Source: Vicingaceae bacterium (GTDB lineage: Bacteria; Bacteroidota; Bacteroidia; Flavobacteriales_E; Vicingaceae). From it: a stretch of 64,000 nucleotides of DNA. Made by a program: the position numbers and the translations under genes. The DNA lies in NCBI GenBank assembly GCA_026003395.1, contig BPHE01000002.1, positions 62,001-126,000 of the forward strand, given 5' to 3'. Position 1 is the stretch's first letter. Every line of letters begins with the position of its first letter. The notes beneath the pieces were generated by a model, which saw nothing but the letters and a program-made list of their open reading frames with translations, was not told where the DNA came from and did not search any database. Below are positions 2,935 through 56,390 of the stretch, in pieces.

Positions 2935-5392
2935 GAAACACTCTTTTGATTCTGTGCGACAGTCCTGTAAGCAATTCGTAAGGAATTGTATCGCAAATGC
3001 CGCTCATTTTTTCCAAATTATTTTCAGATGAAAAAATTACCACACGGTCTCCTTCTTTGCAATCTATGCCGGATACATCAATCATACACATATCCATACA
3101 AATCCATCCTACTGTGGGGGCATATTGTCCATTAACATTAACCAACCAACGGCCATGACTTAATTGACGTCTTAATCCATCGGCATATCCTATCGGCAGT
3201 ATGGCGATTTTATGTTGTCTTTCGGCTTTGAACATTCTTCCATACCCTACTGATTCTCCTTTGGAAACAGTTTTAATTTGTGAAATACGGGATGTGAGAC
3301 GATGTGGAATTTTCAATTGAGGGTGCCGGCTTTTCCCAATAAATCCATGCAAACCTATTCCCAGACGAACCATATCCATGGCAAATTGAGGGAAACGTAA
3401 AATACCTGCAGAATTAAGTAAATGTCGGATGGGCTGATAATCCAATTGGGCTTCAATTTCGCGGCACATTTCAACGAAAACATTGGCTTGTCGGAGAGAA
3501 AATTCATCTTGCTCAGGATCTTCAGAGGCCGCCAGGTGCGAAAAAATTCCTTCTACAAATAAATACTTGTCTTGTTTGATGATCTCTAACAATTCTTCCA
3601 TTTCATCAGGTTTAAAACCAAGACGGTTCATTCCTGTGTCTAATTTAATATGAACAGGATACGGAATGCGATCGCCATAATCTAACACAGCCCGGGAAAA
3701 TAATTTCCATTGTTGAAATGAAAAAATGGACGGAGTTAAATTGTATTGAATCAACAATGGGAATGTTTCAGGTTCGGGATTCATAACCAAAATGGGGATG
3801 TTCACTCCTGCTTCACGCAGTTCAACCCCTTCGTTAGTAAATGCCACGGCAAAATAATGGCAGCCGAGATACTGCAAGTAGCCCGACAATTCTTTCAAAC
3901 CTGATCCATATCCAAATGCCTTGATGATTGCCATGATTTTGGTGGATGATGGAATTTGTTTTCTAAAAAAATGAAAGTTATGTGCAATGTCATTCATGCT
4001 GATTTCCAATTGTACCGAATGAATAGCAGGTTCAAAAAAAGCAGCCACTTTTTCAAGTGTATATTTTCTGCTTCCTTTAATTAAAATCACTTGATTGGAA
4101 AGACGTATCGTTTTGAGATATTTGATCAAGTCATCTGCATCTTGATCGAAATGCTTCAGAAATGTTATTTGTTGCAATCTTGCTGATAATTGCTTCCATT
4201 GTGGACCAAGCAAAAAGATATGATCAAATGATTGTTGTAAAATTAAATTTAATGCATTCTGATAGGTATGAAAATCGGTAAAGCCATCAAAATCGGTCAG
4301 AATAAGCGTTTTTGGTTGATTTGGGCGTAAAGCGGGCAAGTATTCCAGGGTGGTTTGCAAGGAACCGGGATCGGCATTGTAAAAATCACAAATCAATAAA
4401 TTGTTGTTTTTTCCCTGCCGGGTTTCCATTCTCATGGAAATGACCGGCAAGGATTGTAATTGTTTTCCTAAAATATCTGCAGGGATGCCGTGGACAAATG
4501 CAAACAATAAGCAATTCATCGCATTGTGTAAGGAAGCCGGATCATTGAAAGGCAGCTTAAATTTGTAAATTTGATCATTGAATACCACCTCAAACAAGCG
4601 TTGATCTCCGTCTATAATTGATTTGGACAAAAACAAATCGGCGTTTTTATCTTTACTTGACCAGTAGAAAAACTCTTTATCGGGATATTTTTGAATCAAC
4701 TCGGAAAGATATGCAATATCAGGCAAATAAATTTTTTGGGCGTGAGTAAATAAAACTGATTTTTCCAAAAGTAAATGAAGCCGGTCCCTGAAATTGTGCA
4801 AATGTGCCTCTCCCAGATGTGTGAATATAACTTCGTCGGGACAAATCATTTCCGAAAGATATTTCATTTCGCCGGGTTGCGAAATACCGGCTTCGATCAA
4901 GTAATAATCAAATCCGGGATCAGCCAACAACAAAGATAAAGCCACGCCCACTTGAGAATTGTAACTTTTTGGGCTTCTGTATGTTTTATAAGTACTTGCC
5001 AATAAATTGAATAACCATTCTTTTGTGATTGTTTTGCCATTGCTGCCCGTAATAGCCACAAAATTTGCATTTAATTGCCTGCGATGATATGCCGCTATGC
5101 TTTGCAAAGCACGCAAAGTATCGTCTACCAAAACATAATTGCCTTGTTGGATATACTTCACAAAAGATTCATCATCGATAACAAAATTTTTGACACCTTT
5201 TTTTATGCAATCTTGAATATACAAATGCCCGTCGTGATTAGGGCCGTGCAATGCAATAAACATGGCATTTTCAGATATCACAATCTTACGGCTGTCAGTA
5301 TAAATATGCTTTACGCGCTCATTTTCTTTTTGAATGTGTATCTTGCGTATTTGCAAGATATTTTCAAGATTGGAAAAATTAAATTCCGGCAT
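2924..5392 (-). CDS. murF-alr: Bifunctional UDP-MurNAc-tripeptide:D-Ala-D-Ala ligase / alanine racemase (MurF-Alr fusion)
   Basis: At 822 aa this is a full-length fusion of two cell-wall enzymes, an arrangement characteristic of Bacteroidota. The N-terminal half (about 1-455) is a Mur ligase with the ATP-binding loop [12 protein letters not shown] near 115-126 and central-domain motifs such as [10 protein letters not shown] near 167. The C-terminal half (about 458-822) is a fold-type III PLP alanine racemase: Lys491 in [10 protein letters not shown] should be the PLP lysine, with tyrosines in GYGRMF (717) and GYADG (736) and the CMDMCMID segment near 765. It makes D-Ala and adds D-Ala-D-Ala to the peptidoglycan precursor in the cytoplasm. 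It overlaps tdk by 14 nt and mqnB by 11 nt. No key residue is visibly missing. Confidence 0.95.
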
Positions 5393-5978
5393 GTTGCGAC
5401 TTTTTTAGATAACAATTTCTGCACAAAGGAATGTATGATTCGGTTTCTCCCAAGAGAACCAATTCTTTGGAAGGTACTTTTCTAAAAGAATAATGCGCCA
5501 AATCACCACATTCGACACAAATTGCATGAACTTTGGTCACAAACTCGGCAATAGAAAGTAATATCGGCATAGGACCAAACGGTTGGCCTTTGTAATCCAT
5601 ATCCAAACCTGCCACAATCACTCTTTTGCCTTGATTGGCCAATTGGTTGCATACATCAGGTAGAGCATCATCAAAAAATTGTGCTTCGTCAATACCAATA
5701 ACATCCGCTTCTGCGGCAAAAATCAAAATCTCGGATGACCATTCCACAGGTGTTGATGGAATAGATTTACGGTCATGTGACACAATCTGAATCTCGTCAT
5801 ATCTGTTATCAGTGCGGGGTTTGAAAATTTCCACCTTAAAATTGGCAATTTGAGACCGCTTCAAACGTCTGATTAATTCTTCGGTTTTGCCGGAAAACAT
5901 CGAACCGCAAATCACTTCAATACAACCTTTTTTTCTTCTTCCATGAACAGGTTCGTTATTGTTTCTTTCCAGATTCAT
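5379..5978 (-). CDS. tdk: Thymidine kinase (type II)
   Basis: Thymidine kinase phosphorylates thymidine to dTMP in the salvage pathway. From the start chosen at 5978 (199 aa, typical for the family) the P-loop GSMFSGKT lies at residues 25-32, followed by the DEAQFF Walker B motif and the lasso-domain zinc cysteines CVECGD and CRNCY. An upstream in-frame ATG at 6053 would add 25 AT-rich codons unlike the family, so I reject it. It is the first gene of the minus-strand operon; its 3' end overlaps murF-alr by 14 nt. The gene at 6064 diverges from it, so 5979-6063 must hold both promoters. Confidence 0.93.
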
Positions 5979-6063
5979 AAAAATTTTAATTGCATAAAAA
6001 TTTTTGTAAAATTGATGTAATTTTACGTTTTCTTCAAGTTGAATTATTAACAAAATAAAAAAT

Positions 6064-6741
6064 ATGTCAAACCAAAGCTACGAACAAAAAAAGAAAACCA
6101 TTAGAAAAGAATTGACCGATTTGGTTGAAAAAATTAAAAGCCATTCCGACAGGGTCAGCGAAATGGACCATGTGCCAATATTGGAAATCGAGGTACTTAT
6201 GTCTTATGCCCACAAATTGTTGGAAAAAGCCACGTTATACAAGTACTTTTTGACGGATGAAATTTTGCAATACTTGCCTGAAATAAGCCCCGTCAGGGAA
6301 TTGACAAATACAGCCGGGGAGGACAAACCGTCCGTGCACATGTCAACAAACGAATCTGCAACAAAAGAAACCAAAGAGGACTCCGGCAAGGGGACTTCAA
6401 CTGTGATTTCCGAAGAAAAAATTCAAAAAAAATCGTCCGGAGAAAATTTCTCCGGTACAGAACAAACATATATCACAGTAGCCGACCGACTGGGTAAGAA
6501 ACACCGCCAACCGCTTTACAAAACCATGAGTATTGCCGAGAAGTATTATTTTGCTTCTTTATTTAACCGGGATTTGCAACTTTTACAAGAAGTCATGAAT
6601 AAAATTGACCAATCCGACGCTTTTGACGAGGCAATAGATATTTTGATGCAAAACATACGATCAATGCAACAATTAAACGAAGAAGAAAAAGTATGCTTCG
6701 ATCAATTAAAAAAGAAAATCGAAAACAAATTTTTAGAGTGA
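6064..6741 (+). CDS. Conserved hypothetical protein, Bacteroidota-type, low-complexity middle
   Basis: This is a 225-aa soluble protein without signal peptide or membrane segment. An N-terminal helical region (1-85), rich in Lys and Glu, is followed by a Ser/Thr/Glu/Lys-rich linker (about 85-145) and a helical C-terminal region (about 150-225) beginning [19 protein letters not shown] recall that C-terminal pattern (an initial I/S-x-x-E-K-Y/F...LF-x-x-D, then paired helices) from uncharacterised Bacteroidota proteins, but I know of no function. It lies divergent from tdk and 7 nt upstream of the M28 peptidase gene, so it is probably co-transcribed with it. Confidence 0.6.
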
Positions 6742-6748
6742 TGAAAGG

Positions 6749-8029
6749 ATGAAGAAACCGTTTTTGTTTTTTATTTCATTATTTCTTGTTTACATTTCCC
6801 TCGATGCGCAACAGATAGATTATGGGAGGAAATGGGTTGATACGTTAAGCTCGATTCACTTTTCCGGGCGCGGTCCTGCGTTTGAAGGTGAAAAAAAAGC
6901 CCTTGACTATATCGCGGATGAAATGAAAAACATTGGATTAAAACCGCTTGGATATTCTTATATTCAATCTTTTACCTATCCGTGTGTCTGGATCAAAGAT
7001 TCGATATCGCTTGTCATAGATGGAACACCTCTTACGGCCGGAATAGATTTTCTGCCTGATGCGGCAAGCGGATCTATCAGTGGTACTTTTGATCTGATAC
7101 ATTATTCTCTGAAAAATCTTCCGGGATACAATACCATCAAAAAATTAAGCAAAAAAGGATTTTATAAAGATAAAATAGTCGTTATAGAAGATTACACGGT
7201 AGAAGAAAGGAAAAATTACGGCCCCAAAACGCTCAAAGCATTTCAATTGATAGAAGACAATCAAATAGGGGCAGCAGGATTGATGATAAAAAAAAACAGG
7301 CCCATTTATTCGAAAAGCATAGAGAAACTCTCTTATGGTAAAATTGAGGTGGATAAAAACAAAGTCCACACAGGCATGCGGCAAGCAAAAATAAACATAC
7401 ATTCACAATTGGTAGAAAATCCATCAGGAAATGCCATAGGATGGATAAAAGGAACCGAAGTCCCGGATAGTTTTATAGTTTTCACGGCACATTATGATCA
7501 TCTGGGGATGGCCGGCCAATTATTATTTCCGGGGGCAAATGACAATGCAAGCGGTACGGCCATGATTCTATCGCTGGCAAAATATTTTGCTGCACATCCC
7601 GAAAGATATTCGCTGGTTTTTATTGCATTTGGCGGTGAAGAAGCCGGCTTGATCGGGTCCTATTATTTTGTTCAAAACCCATTAATACCACTCAACAGGA
7701 TTAAATTTCTGGTCAATTTTGATATACTTGGAACCGGAGATGAGGGAATCACGGTTGTCAACGCCACCATACATGACAAAGAATTTAACTTGCTGGACTC
7801 TATCAACGCAAAATATAATTATGTACCTGCCATCAAAAAAAGAGGCAAAGCTCCCATTAGCGATCACCATTTTTTCACCGAAAAAGGAGTGCCTTCGTTT
7901 TATATTTATACCCTTGGAGGAATCAAAGCATACCATGATATTTTTGATAGAAGCGAGACATTGCCTTTAACTGAATTTGACGATATTTTTCAATTAATGG
8001 TCAAATATACAACAGCCATATGCCGTTGA
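6749..8029 (+). CDS. Exported M28-family zinc metallopeptidase
   Basis: A signal peptide (about 1-20, ending LDAQ) is followed by a PA-like inserted domain and an M28 catalytic domain (about 225-426). All five metal ligands of the family can be placed: His248 (TAHYDHLG), Asp265 (GANDNASG), Glu298 in GGEEAG with Glu297 as general base, Asp325 (NFDILG) and His396 (AYHDIF). It should act as an aminopeptidase in the periplasm or on the cell surface; the specificity is not visible. It has no T9SS C-terminal sorting domain. Its 3' end overlaps the ThiE-like gene by 10 nt, indicating coupling, though the two functions are not obviously linked. Confidence 0.88.
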   Translation: MKKPFLFFISLFLVYISLDAQQIDYGRKWVDTLSSIHFSGRGPAFEGEKKALDYIADEMKNIGLKPLGYSYIQSFTYPCVWIKDSISLVIDGTPLTAGIDFLPDAASGSISGTFDLIHYSLKNLPGYNTIKKLSKKGFYKDKIVVIEDYTVEERKNYGPKTLKAFQLIEDNQIGAAGLMIKKNRPIYSKSIEKLSYGKIEVDKNKVHTGMRQAKINIHSQLVENPSGNAIGWIKGTEVPDSFIVFTAHYDHLGMAGQLLFPGANDNASGTAMILSLAKYFAAHPERYSLVFIAFGGEEAGLIGSYYFVQNPLIPLNRIKFLVNFDILGTGDEGITVVNATIHDKEFNLLDSINAKYNYVPAIKKRGKAPISDHHFFTEKGVPSFYIYTLGGIKAYHDIFDRSETLPLTEFDDIFQLMVKYTTAICR

Positions 8030-8616
8030 TTGTCATCTCAAACCCATATCCCATTGAGAATGAAATAAAAATTATTCAAAAATTGTTTGACGCAGGTTTA
8101 GAACGATTGCATTGGAGAAGACCCAACGAAGACATTGAAACAACACGTAAATATCTCCAAGTATTAGAACCCCATGCGTCAAAAATTTTTCTACATCAAA
8201 ACCATCAACTAAAAGATGAATTTCCTATTGGGGGACTGCATTTTTCTAGTTCCGGCAGGCAATTACGCAATTTTATAGAAACTTCTAAACCATGCAGCAC
8301 TTCAGTGCATTCAGAAATTGAAATAAGCGAAATTTCAAGAACACATTATGCTTATGCTTTTTTCGGCCCGGTGTTTCGATCCATATCCAAAAAGGGTTAT
8401 CATCCGGCTATGGACAGCAGTGTTATGAAAAAAGTTTTTCAAAATAGTCCTATACCTTTGGTAGCCATAGGAGGAATCAACGATGAAAACATTATTTTGA
8501 TAAAAAATTGGAACATTTATGGTGTTGCTGTTCTGGGATACATTTGGGAATCCACGGAACCGGAAAAAAACTTCAAAAAAATCTCGACCATCTATCACTC
8601 CTTTAATTCTGTGTAA
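8020..8616 (+). CDS. ThiE/TenI-like thiamine phosphate synthase family protein
   Basis: This 198-aa TIM-barrel protein is recognised by [15 protein letters not shown] (about 112-126) and [14 protein letters not shown] (about 146-159), which match the thiazole-phosphate-binding loops of ThiE. The N-terminal motif usually written QLREK appears as LHWRRP, and the usual GxHLGQxD metal segment is replaced by GLHFSSSG, so the diphosphate/Mg site of a true ThiE is not intact. Many Bacteroidota carry such short ThiE-like or TenI-like proteins. It may be a diverged synthase or have another role, and no other thi gene is nearby. It overlaps the M28 gene by 10 nt and converges on accA with a 22-nt overlap of the coding ends. 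Confidence 0.7.
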
Positions 8617-9563
8617 ACTCCCATTTTACAAAACTTGTCGATTCTTTTTTTAACAAGTTCTTCAATGGGTTGTTGACGCAATTTGGGCAAAACTTTTTTC
8701 AATTCTTTTCTGACATTTTCCATCGCTCCCAAAGGATCGGCATGAGCTCCACCAATAGGTTCTTTTATGATTCCATCGATCAGTTTGTTTTGCAGCATAT
8801 CTTGAGCCGTGAGTTTTAATGCTTCAGCGGCCTTTTCCTTATAATCCCAACTTCTCCATAAAATCGTCGAGCAATTTTCGGGAGAAATAACAGAATACCA
8901 GGAATTTTCAAGCATGTATACTTTATCTCCGATACCAATTCCCAAGGCTCCACCGGAAGCACCTTCACCTATGACGATACAAACTATGGGAGTGCGTAAT
9001 CTCGACATTTCAAACAAATTTCTGGCAATGGCTTCCCCCTGACCTCTTTCTTCAGCTTCCAAACCGGGATACGCTCCGGGCGTATCAATCAAAGTCACAA
9101 CAGGTTTATTAAATTTTTCAGCTAGCTTCATTAATCTTAAAGCTTTGCGGTATCCCTCAGGGTTGGCCATTCCAAAATTTCTATATTGTCTCATTTTGGT
9201 ATTCACCCCTTTTTGGTGTCCAATAAACATGACTGTTTCTCCTTCAAATAGTCCCATTCCTCCCACAATGGCCTTGTCATCCTTAACATTCCGGTCGCCA
9301 TGTAATTCTTGAAATTGCCCGTTGGTCAAATATTCTATATAAGACAAAGTATAAGGACGTTCGGGATGGCGCGATACCAATACCCTTTGCCATGGCGTGA
9401 GATTGAGGTAAATTTCTTTTCGTACCTGATTTATTTTTTCTTCTAAACTTTTGATGGTATCACTCATGTCTACTTTTCCTTTCTCATGCGTTTCCTTTGC
9501 CTTGTTCAATTGATCCACCAACACTTTAATGGGTTCTTCAAAATCCAAAAAAACAGTATTCAT
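8595..9563 (-). CDS. accA: Acetyl-CoA carboxylase carboxyltransferase, alpha subunit
   Basis: With AccD, AccA transfers the carboxyl group from biotin to acetyl-CoA to form malonyl-CoA for fatty-acid synthesis. The 322-aa protein from the 9563 start fits the family (about 317-320). It has the N-terminal helical part ([15 protein letters not shown]), the [16 protein letters not shown] segment, and the crotonase-fold core with [28 protein letters not shown] and [12 protein letters not shown], the last forming an oxyanion/CoA-binding region. The upstream ATG at 9614 is less likely because the family begins near FLDFE. It is an isolated gene; its end overlaps the convergent ThiE-like gene by 22 nt. 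Confidence 0.95.
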
Positions 9564-52430: not shown

Positions 52431-53035
52431 ATGCCCGGAAACATTTATTCCTTTGAAGGTTTTGTTCCTTATATTCACGAATCGGCTTATGTGCATCCAA
52501 CTGCCACAATTATTGGAAATGTCAATATAGGCAAAAACGTATTCATAGGCCCGGGAGCCGTGCTGCGTGGTGATTGGGGAGAAATTATCGTCAAGGACGG
52601 TTGCAACATTCAAGACAATTGCATCCTCCATATTTTTCCCGGTGTTGCTGTTATTCTCGAGGAGAATGCCCATATCGGGCACGGCGCCATCATACATAGT
52701 GCCCACATAGGACGAGACACCCTCATAGGTATGAATGCTGTCATTATGGATGATGCCAAGATTGGCAATGAATGCATTGTAGGTGCCTTGGCATTGGTCA
52801 CTCAAGGCACCATCATACCCGACCGCAGCTCGTCGTTGGCAATCCGGCAAAAGTAGTCAAACAGATTTCAGATGAAATGATATATTGGAAAAAAGAAGGC
52901 ACAAAATTGTATCAAGAATTGGTCAATCAAATGAAAAATACCCTAACCCCGTGCGAACCCTTACGCACCCCTCCAAAGTTCCGTCCACCTCAAGAACAAA
53001 CCTATAAAACCTGGCCTAAAACTAAAAAGAAATGA
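52431..53035 (+). pseudogene. Gamma-carbonic anhydrase-like (LbH hexapeptide) protein, frame-broken
   Basis: The N-terminal 142 aa (52431-52856) form a left-handed beta helix (NVFIGPGAVLRGDWGEI, HIGHGAIIHSAHIG, LIGMNAVIMDDAKIG) with His residues of the gamma-CA zinc site. Translation then runs into SSSLAIRQK and a stop. In another frame the normal end follows at once: LVVGNPAKVVKQISDE and YWKKEGTKLYQEL. One missing base near 52830 (CGCAGCTCG, expected CGCAGCCTCG) explains it. The intact protein would be about 201 aa. Its restored end overlaps ridA by 4 nt (ATGA), which argues for a single former gene. Confidence 0.85.
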
Positions 53036-53412
53036 AAGAAGCCGTCAAAACTTCCAATGCGCCTGCTCCTATTGGCCCATACAGTCAAGCCATCAAAGCA
53101 GGCAATTTTTTGTTCATTTCCGGACAAATTGCTATCAATCCGGCTACAGGCAATCTTGAAACACAAAACATCGACACCGAAACCCGGCAGGTACTCTCCA
53201 ACATCTCAGCCATACTTGAGGCAGCAGGTCTTGATTGGAACAACGTAGTAAAAACCACGATTTTTCTGAAAAACATGAATGATTTTGCTGAGGTCAACCG
53301 TGTGTATGCAACTTTTGTCTGCGAACCTTTTCCCGCAAGAGAAACTGTTGAAGTATCCTCATTGCCCAAAAATGTCAATGTAGAAATCTCGGTGATTGCT
53401 GTCAAATTCTAA
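53032..53412 (+). CDS. ridA: RidA-family enamine/imine deaminase
   Basis: This 126-aa protein has the GPYSQAI start, [10 protein letters not shown], and the catalytic Arg103 (PARETVEV) and Glu118 (NVEISVIA). RidA removes reactive 2-aminoacrylate and other enamines formed by PLP enzymes. It overlaps the broken carbonic anhydrase frame by 4 nt. A diverged copy of its last ~30 nt and downstream bases recurs at 54519, beyond the hairpin array. Confidence 0.95.
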
Positions 53413-53658
53413 AAACTAACTTACTCTTTTCTTTGACACTTTTCAATGTTAATTTATTGACAACCACTAATATGACTTTTTTGGGGACCACATCTCTAAC
53501 TTTCCAGAAATTTTTCCATTTCTTTTATTTTTAGAATTTGTAGTTTTTTGCTCTCAGACCGGCTTATTTTCCGTTCAATGAATAAATGCTTCCGTTTTTT
53601 GTCACCGTCAAATTCATACTCTTATACAGGTTGATGAAAACCAAAAACGCACGGAGGT

Positions 53659-54462
53659 CAAGGATTTAAGAAATTGAGAAGAGAAAAAGAATGAGAAAAG
53701 CCAAGACCTCCCCCCAAGCCCCTCTCCTTCTCAAGGAGAGAGGCGCCCGTAAGGGCTTGGTGAGGTATTACACAAATCCCCGACAAATAGATTTTGGTGC
53801 AAATATGGATTATAGAAACGAAAAATGCTCGCAATGCAAGGATTTTGCAATTGAGAAGTCAAAACCTCTCCCCATAGCCCCTCTCCTTCTCAAGGAGAGG
53901 GGCGCCCGTAAGGGCGGGGTGAGGTTTTCAAATCCCCTGCAAATAGATGTTGGTGCAATTACGAGTTTATGAAAACGCAAAATGCCGGAATGCAGGGATT
54001 TTGCAATTGAGAAGTCAAAACCTCTCTCCCCATAGCCCCTCTCCTTCTCAAGGAGAGGGGCGCCCGTAAGGGCGGGGTGAGGTTTTCGTCCCCCTACAAA
54101 TAGATGTTGCAGCAATTACGAGTTTATGAAAACGAAATATGTCCGCAATGCAAGGATTTTGCAATTGAGAAGTCAAAATCTCTCCCCAAGCCCCTCTCCT
54201 TCTCAAGGAGAGGGGCGCCCGTAAGGGCGGGGTGAGGTTTTCGTCCCCCTACAAATAGATGTTGCAGCAATTACGAGTTTATGAAAACGAAATATGTCCG
54301 CAATGCAAGGATTTTGCAATTGAGAAGTCAAAACCTCTCCCCATAGCCCCTCTCCTTACCAAGGAGAGGGGCGCCCGTAAGGGCGGGGTGAGGTTTCAAA
54401 TCCCTGGCAAATAGATGTTGGTGCAATTACGAATTAATATAAACGTAAATCATTCTAAAACC
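53659..54462. repeat. Five tandem ~156-bp units each with a GC-rich hairpin
   Basis: Units begin with CAAGGATTT(T) at 53659, 53837, 53993 (as CAGGGATTT), 54151 and 54306; spacing is 178, 156, 158 and 155 bp, and a decayed sixth start lies near 54462. Each unit reads: ATTGAGAAGTCAAAACCTC, CCCCATAGCCCCTCTCCTTC, then the palindrome CCTCTCCTT..AAGGAGAGG, GCGCCCGTAAGGGCG, GGGGTGAGGTTTT, CAAATAGATGTTG and ATTACGAGTTTATGAAAACG. The outer parts (AAAACCTC...GAGGTTTT) also pair. The first unit is the most diverged; units 3 to 5 are nearly identical, pointing to recent amplification. Similar GGGGTGAGG/CTCTCC palindromes occur as dispersed intergenic repeats in many bacteria. Confidence 0.85.
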
Positions 54463-54518
54463 TTGAATTTGATAAATTGAGCTCTTCAAAAAATAAGAAA
54501 ATGTCAAGATAAAGTAAA

Positions 54519-54575
54519 ATATCAACGTTGGAATCTCGATGATTGCTGTCAAATTCTAAAAAGCAAACCTACTTT
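54519..54575 (+). repeat. Diverged duplicate of the ridA 3' end
   Basis: ATCTCGATGATTGCTGTCAA followed by ATTCTAAAAA repeats the end of ridA at 53383-53415 (ATCTCGGTGATTGCTGTCAA, ATTCTAAAAA); flanking bases are also alike (AATATCAACGTTGGA against AATGTCAATGTAGA; CAAACCTACT against CTAACTTACT). About 48 of 56 positions agree by eye. The copy retains the codons for ISMIAVKF and the stop, but has no gene body. Confidence 0.75.
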
Positions 54576-54640
54576 GTTGGCAGTCATTTTTTCAATTTGG
54601 CTGTAAAATAGAGAATAGACAAACACGGAAATGTATTAAC

Positions 54641-55000
54641 TCATTCTTGCATCTCCTGCAATTGTCGCAATATATCCTCCATTTGCAGTGCCGTAAAAAT
54701 ACCCACTCCGAACATCAACAAATAGATGAGTATAATCAACAAATACAAGCTCGAGAAAAACAACCCGATATAAGCACAGGTTTTTCCTGCAATCAGATTG
54801 TTATATGAGGAAAGAGTGTATATCCCCGGTTGTTCTCTGTATTTACTTTCGCCATACTTAGATATCCAAAGTGCTATCAATGCAAAGATTAAACCCGGTA
54901 ACCCATAACAAATACAACTGATTATCGATAAAATGCCAAGCACCAATGTAGTATTGGCATTTGGCACAGAGATAAGTATTTGTTGATTGGTACCGGACAT
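54641..55000 (-). CDS. Small membrane protein of the CCC-motif type
   Basis: The 119-aa product from ATG 55000 (an ATG at 55027 would extend it by 9 residues). Two membrane segments: NTTLVLGILSIISCICYGLPGLIFALIALWIS (about 17-48) and ICAYIGLFFSSLYLLIILIYLLMFG-like (about 74-100). The ISCICYGLPGLI stretch corresponds to the cysteine motif of a Bacteroidota family called CCC-motif membrane protein, with the middle Cys replaced by Ile. The function is unknown. It lies 1 nt after the PorP/SprF-like gene end and shares its transcript. Confidence 0.7.
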   Translation of the reverse strand: MSGTNQQILISVPNANTTLVLGILSIISCICYGLPGLIFALIALWISKYGESKYREQPGIYTLSSYNNLIAGKTCAYIGLFFSSLYLLIILIYLLMFGVGIFTALQMEDILRQLQEMQE

Positions 55001-55001
55001 T

Positions 55002-56390
55002 TTAATCAAACAAAAATATCCAAGCATCTTTTCTTACCTGACGTGCCTCTTCGAGTTTTTTTCTTGCTTCACTCTCGTCAGGCGTATACATCACCGATAC
55101 ATAATAAAACTTCCTTTTTTTGTTGTAGATTATGGCAGGAATAAAATCGGTTTGCGTCATATAATATTCTTTCGCTTTATCGGCATTTGCCTTTTCCTGA
55201 AAAGATTCTATCACAACATAAAAACCCGGGGAAACGGTGGCTCCTGTTTCATCTGTATAATCCTGACGGTTTTCTTTCTTGATAGATTGACCTGCCTCCG
55301 ATGGAGACGTATTGGTCGAATTGACACTGCCTGTAGTTTTCGGTAAATTTTTGACGGCTTCTTTTAAAGAGTCAATTTCTTGCTGTTGTTTTAAATTCTT
55401 ACGTTGTTGTTCCTCAATCTTTTCCTGCGTATTCAAGAGGCGTTGGTCCAGATCGTCATTGATTTCTTTCAATTTTTCGTCTATATATTTTTTTGAATTT
55501 CCACCAAAAGTATAACCAAGTGCGATTTCATGACCGCCACCGGTATAAGCTCCTATAGCCAGAAGCATATATTCATAAGAATAAGATAAAAACAGGTTGT
55601 CAAACAAATTTAAACCAAGATTCATCCCCGCAGCATAGTTATAACGGAAAAATGGCCCCCCTTGAATCATACCACGCCATTTAACAATAGCCCCCACATC
55701 AAACTGTAGAGGAGAATTTTGCGACCAAAAGAAAGAAGCATTAGGAATAACAGACAATTCATCATTGATTTCATAATCATACATTACATTGAAAACCAAA
55801 TGTTGTTTCAATCTAAAATATGCATTTTGATTTTTATTCTCAAACGCAATTTGATTTCCAAACAATTGTTTTGCTGCAATACCTGCTTTTAAATTGTTCC
55901 AGTGATAAGCAATACCAAAAGCCGCATCGGGAGTAATTTTTCTTCGCGAAGCACTGATCAACAAGGGATCATTAACATCCTTAGGATTAGAAGCACTAAA
56001 ATCAATGCGGTTGTCATTAAACCCAACCGTTATACCCGGTATGATATAATGATCCCCGCCCACTTGAAAGGAATAGGCGTAAGACGCCCCCACAAATGTT
56101 CGATTGAATATGTCTGTCTGGTCGTTAAAAATAGACAATCCCAACCTCATTTTTTCCTGATTGGTTTTCCCGTCAATTGTCAAACCATAGGTAACCGGAG
56201 CTCCCTGTATATTTTTCCATTGACTGCGGTGCAACAAAAATGCTTTAGGATTCTCGCCTATTCCTGCGAATCCGGGATTATACACAAACGGATTGTAATA
56301 AAATTGACTATAATAAGGCAATTGTTGTGAAAGGCTTTTGTTTCCAAATAAACAAACAACAATTATAGTGAATATTATATTTTTTTTCAT
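55002..56390 (-). CDS. PorP/SprF-family T9SS membrane protein with coiled coil and SPOR-like tail
   Basis: The 462-aa protein has a signal peptide (about 1-21), the PorP/SprF barrel domain (about 22-300) opening with QLPYYSQFYYNPFVYNPGFAG and HRSQWKNIQGAP, a coiled-coil Glu/Gln-rich stretch (about 305-350), a Ser/Thr linker and a C-terminal SPOR-like domain (about 388-462: GFYVVIESFQEKANADKAKE, FYYVSVMYTPDESEA). In Flavobacterium SprF is required for surface display of the adhesin SprB; genes of this family usually follow the adhesin they serve. Here it lies 7 nt after the 1081-aa type B adhesin, so that adhesin is the likely client. The coiled coil plus SPOR tail is an extension over plain SprF. 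Confidence 0.88.
   Translation of the reverse strand: MKKNIIFTIIVVCLFGNKSLSQQLPYYSQFYYNPFVYNPGFAGIGENPKAFLLHRSQWKNIQGAPVTYGLTIDGKTNQEKMRLGLSIFNDQTDIFNRTFVGASYAYSFQVGGDHYIIPGITVGFNDNRIDFSASNPKDVNDPLLISASRRKITPDAAFGIAYHWNNLKAGIAAKQLFGNQIAFENKNQNAYFRLKQHLVFNVMYDYEINDELSVIPNASFFWSQNSPLQFDVGAIVKWRGMIQGGPFFRYNYAAGMNLGLNLFDNLFLSYSYEYMLLAIGAYTGGGHEIALGYTFGGNSKKYIDEKLKEINDDLDQRLLNTQEKIEEQQRKNLKQQQEIDSLKEAVKNLPKTTGSVNSTNTSPSEAGQSIKKENRQDYTDETGATVSPGFYVVIESFQEKANADKAKEYYMTQTDFIPAIIYNKKRKFYYVSVMYTPDESEARKKLEEARQVRKDAWIFLFD

Follow-up and report, generated by a model that had tools for sequence, protein, structure and literature searches.

A probable MITE-like element of IS1634-family origin carrying a tandem array of hairpins at the 3′ end of ridA in a Vicingaceae genome

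A probable inserted element between ridA and a convergent gene

The window analysed here is a stretch of 64,000 nucleotides from the draft genome of a Vicingaceae bacterium (2.54 Mb in 33 contigs, 97.72% complete with 3.27% contamination). Between the gene for a Rid family hydrolase (ridA) and a convergently transcribed membrane protein gene, the window contains a tandem array of hairpins that is very probably (roughly 85%) the expanded interior of a MITE-like element that is non-autonomous, measures about 1.09 kb (53425-54515), stems from the IS1634 family of insertion sequences and was inserted at the 3′ end of ridA. An IS1634-family transposase would have moved the element in trans into the end of ridA, and the insertion would have made a target-site duplication (56/57 bp) so long that the stop codon of ridA was preserved and the tail of the gene is found once more beyond the element. 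The interior would consist of a hairpin module and a spacer repeated head-to-tail, and the number of these units would shift as the repeats recombine unequally or slip during replication, a process that could also account for the likeness of units within one array. The preliminary description of this DNA had placed the feature at 53659-54462, which is near the limits of the array, but the enclosing element is larger; it had not recognised the whole as a derivative of a transposon, nor the duplication of the ridA tail.

The ridA gene (53032-53412, + strand; 126 aa; TIGR00004 with E 1.2e-51, PF01042) is intact upstream of the element, and the gene convergent with it (54641-55027, - strand) encodes a CCC-motif membrane protein (NF040945 above cut-off). 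The last 44 bp of ridA including the stop codon (53369-53412) lie inside the left copy of a direct repeat (53369-53424, + strand), of which the right copy (54516-54572, + strand) constitutes the second ridA tail. The two copies, of 56 and 57 bp, are identical in 49 of 57 aligned columns (about 86%), and both adjoin the ends of the element to within 1 bp. The repeat is evidence independent of the inverted repeats, and as recovered in the search for direct repeats at both ends it spans 58 columns (86%). This direct repeat abutting both ends is the strongest evidence for an inserted element. The insertion doubled the end of ridA with the gene unbroken, which illustrates how a gene can stay intact despite an insertion in its end, and the divergence of 14% between the two tails suggests that the insertion is old.

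The left arm of the element (53425-53702, + strand) begins with a terminal inverted repeat (53425-53443, + strand; left-end score 27) that by eye has two mismatches to the insertion sequence end TCTTGACTTTGACACTTT. Within this arm, 53431-53526 is 75% identical to part of the left arm of another array of the genome, L039 (C2:115431-115526), and that part of L039 is homologous to the insertion sequence end (73% over about 170 bp). The right arm (54397-54515, + strand) matches the right arms of other arrays at 70-74% and terminates in a degenerate inverted repeat (54497-54515, + strand) with a right-end score of 9, only at the 99% null level; the right boundary at 54515 rests mainly on the direct repeat and not on this weak inverted repeat. 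The largest orfs in the element (93 and 101 aa) run across the repeats, and no transposase is encoded.

The tandem array and its hairpins

Tandem Repeats Finder delimited the array at 53698-54432 (+ strand) with a period of 155, 4.7 copies and 90% matches; a second row with a period of 313 is the same array. Each unit comprises a palindromic core of 67-71 nt and a spacer of about 87 nt. Core search and folding located five cores on the + strand, arranged head-to-tail: unit 1 at 53703-53769, which is the most diverged, unit 2 at 53861-53929, unit 3 at 54017-54087, unit 4 at 54175-54242 and unit 5 at 54330-54396, with start-to-start distances of 158, 156, 158 and 155. All of the palindromes named in the preliminary description were found, nested as one three-way junction that is formed by an outer pair AAAACCTC/GAGGTTTT plus CCCC/GGGG, an inner arm CTCTCCTT/AAGGAGAG and a second arm GCCC/GGGC. 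A longer inner palindrome, CCCCTCTCCTT/AAGGAGAGGGG, has a chance expectation of 0.00 in the window and is exact in four of the five units, unit 1 being the one that deviates. The cores have a G+C content of 0.60-0.61 (window, 0.376). Folded alone as RNA, each core reaches -33.8 to -50.0 kcal/mol (z -4.0 to -7.7), a stability equalled by 0/200 shuffles for each of the five units, and the one unit that was folded as DNA forms the same structure on both strands. The repeat finder and the folding of the five units together bear out the tandem array of strong hairpins that had been described.

The earlier statement that the last three units are nearly identical is correct for the cores, those of units 2-5 being 97-100% identical to the unit-2 query, but not for whole 155-nt units, of which only the third and fourth are alike (98%) and the fifth has 70% ungapped identity to that reference; beyond the third and fourth, the whole units differ by substitutions and small indels. 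A CRISPR array was considered and rejected, as the spacers are themselves repeated (within-array spacer identity 0.886) and not unique. When the whole window was compared with Rfam at gathering score, five tRNAs were the only matches, and the array matched no RNA family.

A resident insertion sequence of the IS1634 family

A search with the left flank of the L039 array (73% over about 170 bp) identified an insertion sequence (IS) of 1,967 bp, present in the genome in four copies that are 94-100% identical and located at places without arrays. Its transposase of 556-557 aa is assigned to NF033559 (IS1634; E 5e-110, cut-off passed) and PF01609, and its terminal inverted repeats are a perfect 19 bp, TCTTGACTTTGACACTTTC in both directions. 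The L039 array matches the IS on both sides: its stretch 171-341 matches the left terminus (E 1e-21) and its stretch 932-1013 the right terminus (E 4e-8), i.e. about 170 bp and 82 bp at 73% identity. Because the flanks of the arrays match both ends of a resident IS, the element is read as a non-autonomous derivative of such an IS, and the 557-aa transposase makes the IS a suitable kind of parent. The transposase of this IS may have moved the element, but the arm-to-IS identity is only 73%, and the present IS is therefore a relative and perhaps not the mover.

Direct repeats were sought at all four IS copies; two have none, and the other two have repeats of 45 bp (97.8%) and 743 bp (100%), long and variable as in IS1634 and IS1549. 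In the IS1634 family, target-site duplications are usually 5-6 bp (PMC2266710), one case of 6 bp being described in PMC8024623, whereas IS1549 and IS1634 have direct repeats of 8 to 514 bp, for which no model had been proposed by the time of that account (PMC2266710); long repeats are a trait of these two reported members and not of the family in general. The resident IS belongs to the same transposase family, and one of its repeats exceeds the 8-514 bp range given there. The window element, unlike IS1634 and IS1549, encodes no transposase. As a MITE tied to the IS1634 family, it offers, together with the resident IS, sites of 56 bp and 743 bp for the study of long target duplications. The two copies of the 743-bp repeat (L085:1201-1943 and 3909-4651, 100% identical) include part of a gene.

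A family of arrays in the genome

One core used as query against its own genome gave 106 matches, some of which are short reverse matches of the palindrome itself. After matches covering 31 query positions or fewer were dropped and the others were mapped on fetched stretches, there were 75 cores. Of these, 71 belong to the 19 array loci; the other four, which surround a DUF559 gene (L036), were left out of the array counts and flank comparisons. The genome-wide search for the unit and its copy number that the preliminary description had called for thus gives 19 loci and 71 units. The unit had been thought to belong to an element that as a rule occurs alone; of the 19 loci of this genome, 17 are tandem (2-12 units, spaced 152-160 except at one N gap and one short unit within arrays), and it is the relatives in other genomes examined that are mostly outside arrays. 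The array in the window is not the local amplification of a lone repeat. Three pairs of near-duplicate stretches occur among the 19 loci (in L031, in L032, and L033/L040), and these were kept in all counts unless stated otherwise. The pair in L031 is a duplicated stretch of about 3.7 kb (L031:1-3722 and 5268-8990, 99.8%) that contains the element and flanking genes, and L032 has a more diverged analogue.

The array flanks are common to the 19 loci in varying completeness, with similarity (aligned without two near-duplicate loci) that extends for as much as about 360 bp to the left of the array and 196 bp to its right. Scores for likeness to the IS ends were compared with 99% nulls of 17 (left) and 9 (right) drawn at 1,000 random positions within the window itself. 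A left-end score of at least 23 was found in 10/19 arrays, although the left-end scores reflect the relatedness of the copies no less than their resemblance to the IS because their query combined the IS end with the consensus of the arrays' own left arms; a right-end score of at least 11 was found in 8/19. Only three arrays (L033, L040 and L039) passed both cut-offs. Shortened copies are thus the rule.

At L033 and L040, a 30-bp direct repeat (93%) lies within 4 bp of both ends, and L034 has a 28-bp repeat (82%, E 0.007), the right copy of which is 53 bp beyond a non-significant right end. At a threshold of E 0.01, none was found in the other 15 array loci, L039 with its two ends included, and BLAST of the left against the right flank of the same array for inverted repeats gave no match. 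In its make-up, the window element is short and encodes no transposase, and its family has many copies (19 loci, three near-duplicate pairs included); terminal inverted repeats of the resident IS are found in the family and partially in the window copy, strong on the left and weak on the right, and a target-site duplication is present in the window as well as at L033/L040.

A second palindromic repeat, of the CACGGAG type (CCACGGAG...CTCCGTG...CTCTGTGG), encloses many of the element's copies and is apparently a preferred landing site. It occurs in the outer flanks of L031, L034, L039, L045 and others, and as a single copy near C12:5091. Inverted CACGGAG repeats were at one point considered as the ends of the element, a candidate that was dropped when the IS ends were mapped inside them. 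Repeats of this type around the copies could mimic target duplications.

The element appears to be confined to few species. Among 60 related genomes, 6 rows including that of the genome itself match the core at E 0.001 or better; the matches include 5/23 genomes of other families of the class and 0/36 other genomes of the same family. The tandem pattern was found in 0/394 other genomes of the class (1/395 with this genome counted).

It is very improbable that the array is an artefact of assembly. The source is a draft, the near-duplicate array L040 is at a contig end, and the L034 array is interrupted by a gap of 100 N (L034:4211-4310) with 98.5% identical stretches on either side, which is probably a scaffolding overlap, so that the ten units of L034 may be five and its unit number is unreliable. 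The window array, on the other hand, has no N and its units differ by substitutions and indels, the same period recurs at 19 loci, and the ridA-tail repeats, which are outside the array, differ by 14%. The outcome that the preliminary description named as fatal to it, a single-copy repeat made tandem by misassembly, is unlikely for the same reasons.

Another origin to be weighed is a REP one, in which a Y1 (RAYT) transposase would have mobilised the hairpin and the array would be a REP cluster. The hairpins are palindromic, dispersed and clustered, as REPs are, some REP clusters are tandem (PMC3733652), and one RAYT gene was found in the genome (PF01797, E 2e-25). However, this gene (C5:40295) has another family of repeats on its flanks (units of 52-164 bp by tandem finder), and the hairpin is not tied to it and is housed in a larger element with IS1634-type ends. 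A RAYT origin was accordingly rejected as highly improbable. The RAYT gene stands beside an irregular array of these other palindromic repeats at L047:1-1400.

Multiplication of units within arrays

The suggestion that the copies multiplied by a recombination or replication process agrees with two observations on the MITE-like family. Internal units are more similar within arrays (identity 0.904, 120 pairs) than between arrays (0.808, 1,155 pairs), and 1,000 label shuffles over all arrays reached at most 0.848. When near-duplicates and the gapped array were removed, the identities were 0.905 within arrays (90 pairs, 76 of which come from the two largest arrays) and 0.825 between arrays (690 pairs), and 1,000 label shuffles of this reduced set reached at most 0.852. 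All of these identities exclude last units and units across the gap, and the reduced set also excludes L034, L040 and one L031 array. In the reduced set, the window array has a within-array identity of 0.896 and L032 one of 0.818. The second observation is that near-duplicate loci differ in unit number: 1 versus 2 in L033/L040, where L040 is at a contig end, and 1 versus 3 in L032. The likeness within arrays and the differing unit numbers fit unequal recombination or slippage, either of which may have expanded the array.

Genomic setting

The window copy lies between ridA and the convergent membrane protein gene, and such a location is common in the family. Among the 18 resolvable arrays, 11 are in convergent, 7 in codirectional and none in divergent gaps, compared with 7 convergent, 20 codirectional and 15 divergent among other gaps of at least 100 bp in the same fetched stretches (Fisher p 0.001 for convergent and 0.003 for divergent gaps, values that are somewhat too small because near-duplicate loci were counted). 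The gap types were derived with a crude orf caller that took a minimum of 80 aa, and L040, which has one neighbour gene off the contig, was left out.

This bias would be expected if the hairpins had a putative RNA function and capped or shielded ridA and the convergent gene at their 3′ ends, a role that has been proposed for REP-type repeats; their absence from promoter gaps is equally expected from the purging of harmful insertions. Conservation is likewise compatible with such a function: between arrays, hairpins are more conserved than spacers (0.894 versus 0.774, 46 units), and the frequency of minor letters is 0.048 in paired columns and 0.299 in unpaired columns, the triloop being the most variable part (alignment of 58/75 cores, from which 17 near-duplicates picked by eye were left out). 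Covariation was considered as proof of an RNA role and discarded, since it does not rise above shuffles, the observed score being reached by 57/500 and the number of pairs changed on both sides by 370/500; this is put down to the stems, which hardly vary. A scan of 53000-55100 found five terminator-like sites, more than the shuffle mean of 2.1, and three of them are located within unit 1 and its spacer or next to these. All five are on the - strand, however, and none is on the + strand, which is that of ridA, in a scan that considered loops of 3-8 only and was blind to the whole three-way junction. An RNA function as the explanation of the array is on balance unlikely, and purging from promoters is the simplest reading of the gap bias; use of the arrays at 3′ ends is possible.

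Comparison with known elements

The closest analogue in kind is BrickBuilt of Porphyromonas gingivalis, a MITE described as consisting of a leader, 23-nt tandem repeats (1 to 22.8) and a tail, present in 19 copies, with ends that resemble resident IS5-family elements and with putative target duplications that are very short (PMC4596501). The element of the window and its relatives resemble BrickBuilt in the layout of leader, variable tandem repeats and tail, in their 19 copies, in their intergenic location, in ends that resemble those of a resident IS, in the lack of leader or tail in some copies and in their limitation to few species. They differ in a unit of about 155 nt, almost seven times longer, in the three-way-junction palindrome, in IS1634-type ends and in the 56/57-bp target duplication in the window. 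The element would work like BrickBuilt, but it is not BrickBuilt. MITE464/PgRS, also of P. gingivalis, is another MITE with internal tandem repeats, in this case of 41 nt (PMC4596501); going by that description, it is set apart by its much shorter unit and its IS5-type ends. The main text of one MITE review (PMC10969869) contains neither "tandem" nor "IS1634", and a search of titles and the starts of abstracts in the open PMC literature found nothing on this palindrome, on an IS1634-derived MITE with tandem repeats or on DUF559 insertions in enzymes. Alongside the elements of P. gingivalis, there is thus now a bacterial MITE with an expandable tandem array that comes from a different IS family, so that such nesting may be a general outcome.

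The palindrome type and DUF559 genes

The type of palindrome hints at a putative link with DUF559 nucleases. In the genome itself, DUF559 genes (PF04480, two matches, one of them partial) are located between such palindromes (L036:2619-5151), and a 284-bp stretch that contains the palindrome and part of a DUF559 gene is duplicated in tandem. In other genomes of the class, the motif CTCTCC(N2-12)GGAGAG occurs within 1.5 kb of 19/30 DUF559 loci (L087-L116, the best-scoring of far more matches in 124/247 genomes) versus 1/29 ridA-family loci of the same 247-genome sample, from which the ridA locus of this genome (L127) was left out (Fisher p 8e-7). In the 21 genomes for which both loci were available, the motif is found at 14/21 DUF559 and 2/21 ridA-family loci (McNemar p 0.002). 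It is within 300 bp of the DUF559 domain in 17/29 loci.

DUF559 was found in frame inside or between domains of housekeeping enzymes in all eight frames tested, which had been chosen from the 30 loci for their length. The host enzymes are methionine synthase, leucyl-tRNA synthetase or another class I tRNA synthetase (which we take to be isoleucyl), and acetyl-CoA synthetase. The three-way-junction palindrome might be the recognition signal of a widespread DUF559 nuclease element with in-frame insertions in essential enzymes; nicks in the palindrome would render neighbouring DNA prone to tandem duplication, and in this lineage the palindrome would have been captured and amplified in the IS1634-derived MITE. 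If so, the element would be a nested one whose movement and amplification depend on different enzymes. This proposal is doubtful, and only three of the eight in-frame cases carry the palindrome motif, which argues against a simple link. A DUF559 protein of Caulobacter has been treated as Vsr-like (PMC12907096), the type of nuclease that the proposal assumes; in the open PMC literature, DUF559 appears in fourteen papers, in body text only and not in titles or abstracts.

Palindromes of the same make (ACCTCACCCC, CCCCTCTCC/GGAGAGGGG, GGGGTGAGGT) also occur in contigs of cyanobacteria, Anaerolineae and Myxococcota. The tandem pattern was searched in a genome collection of 84,980 species and was found in 14 stretches with one or two matches each, four of which match both strands at one place. 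One of them, on a Myxococcota contig (L071:337-676), has a palindrome of this kind as the basis of an 87-bp unit that is repeated in tandem 3.9 times (99%).
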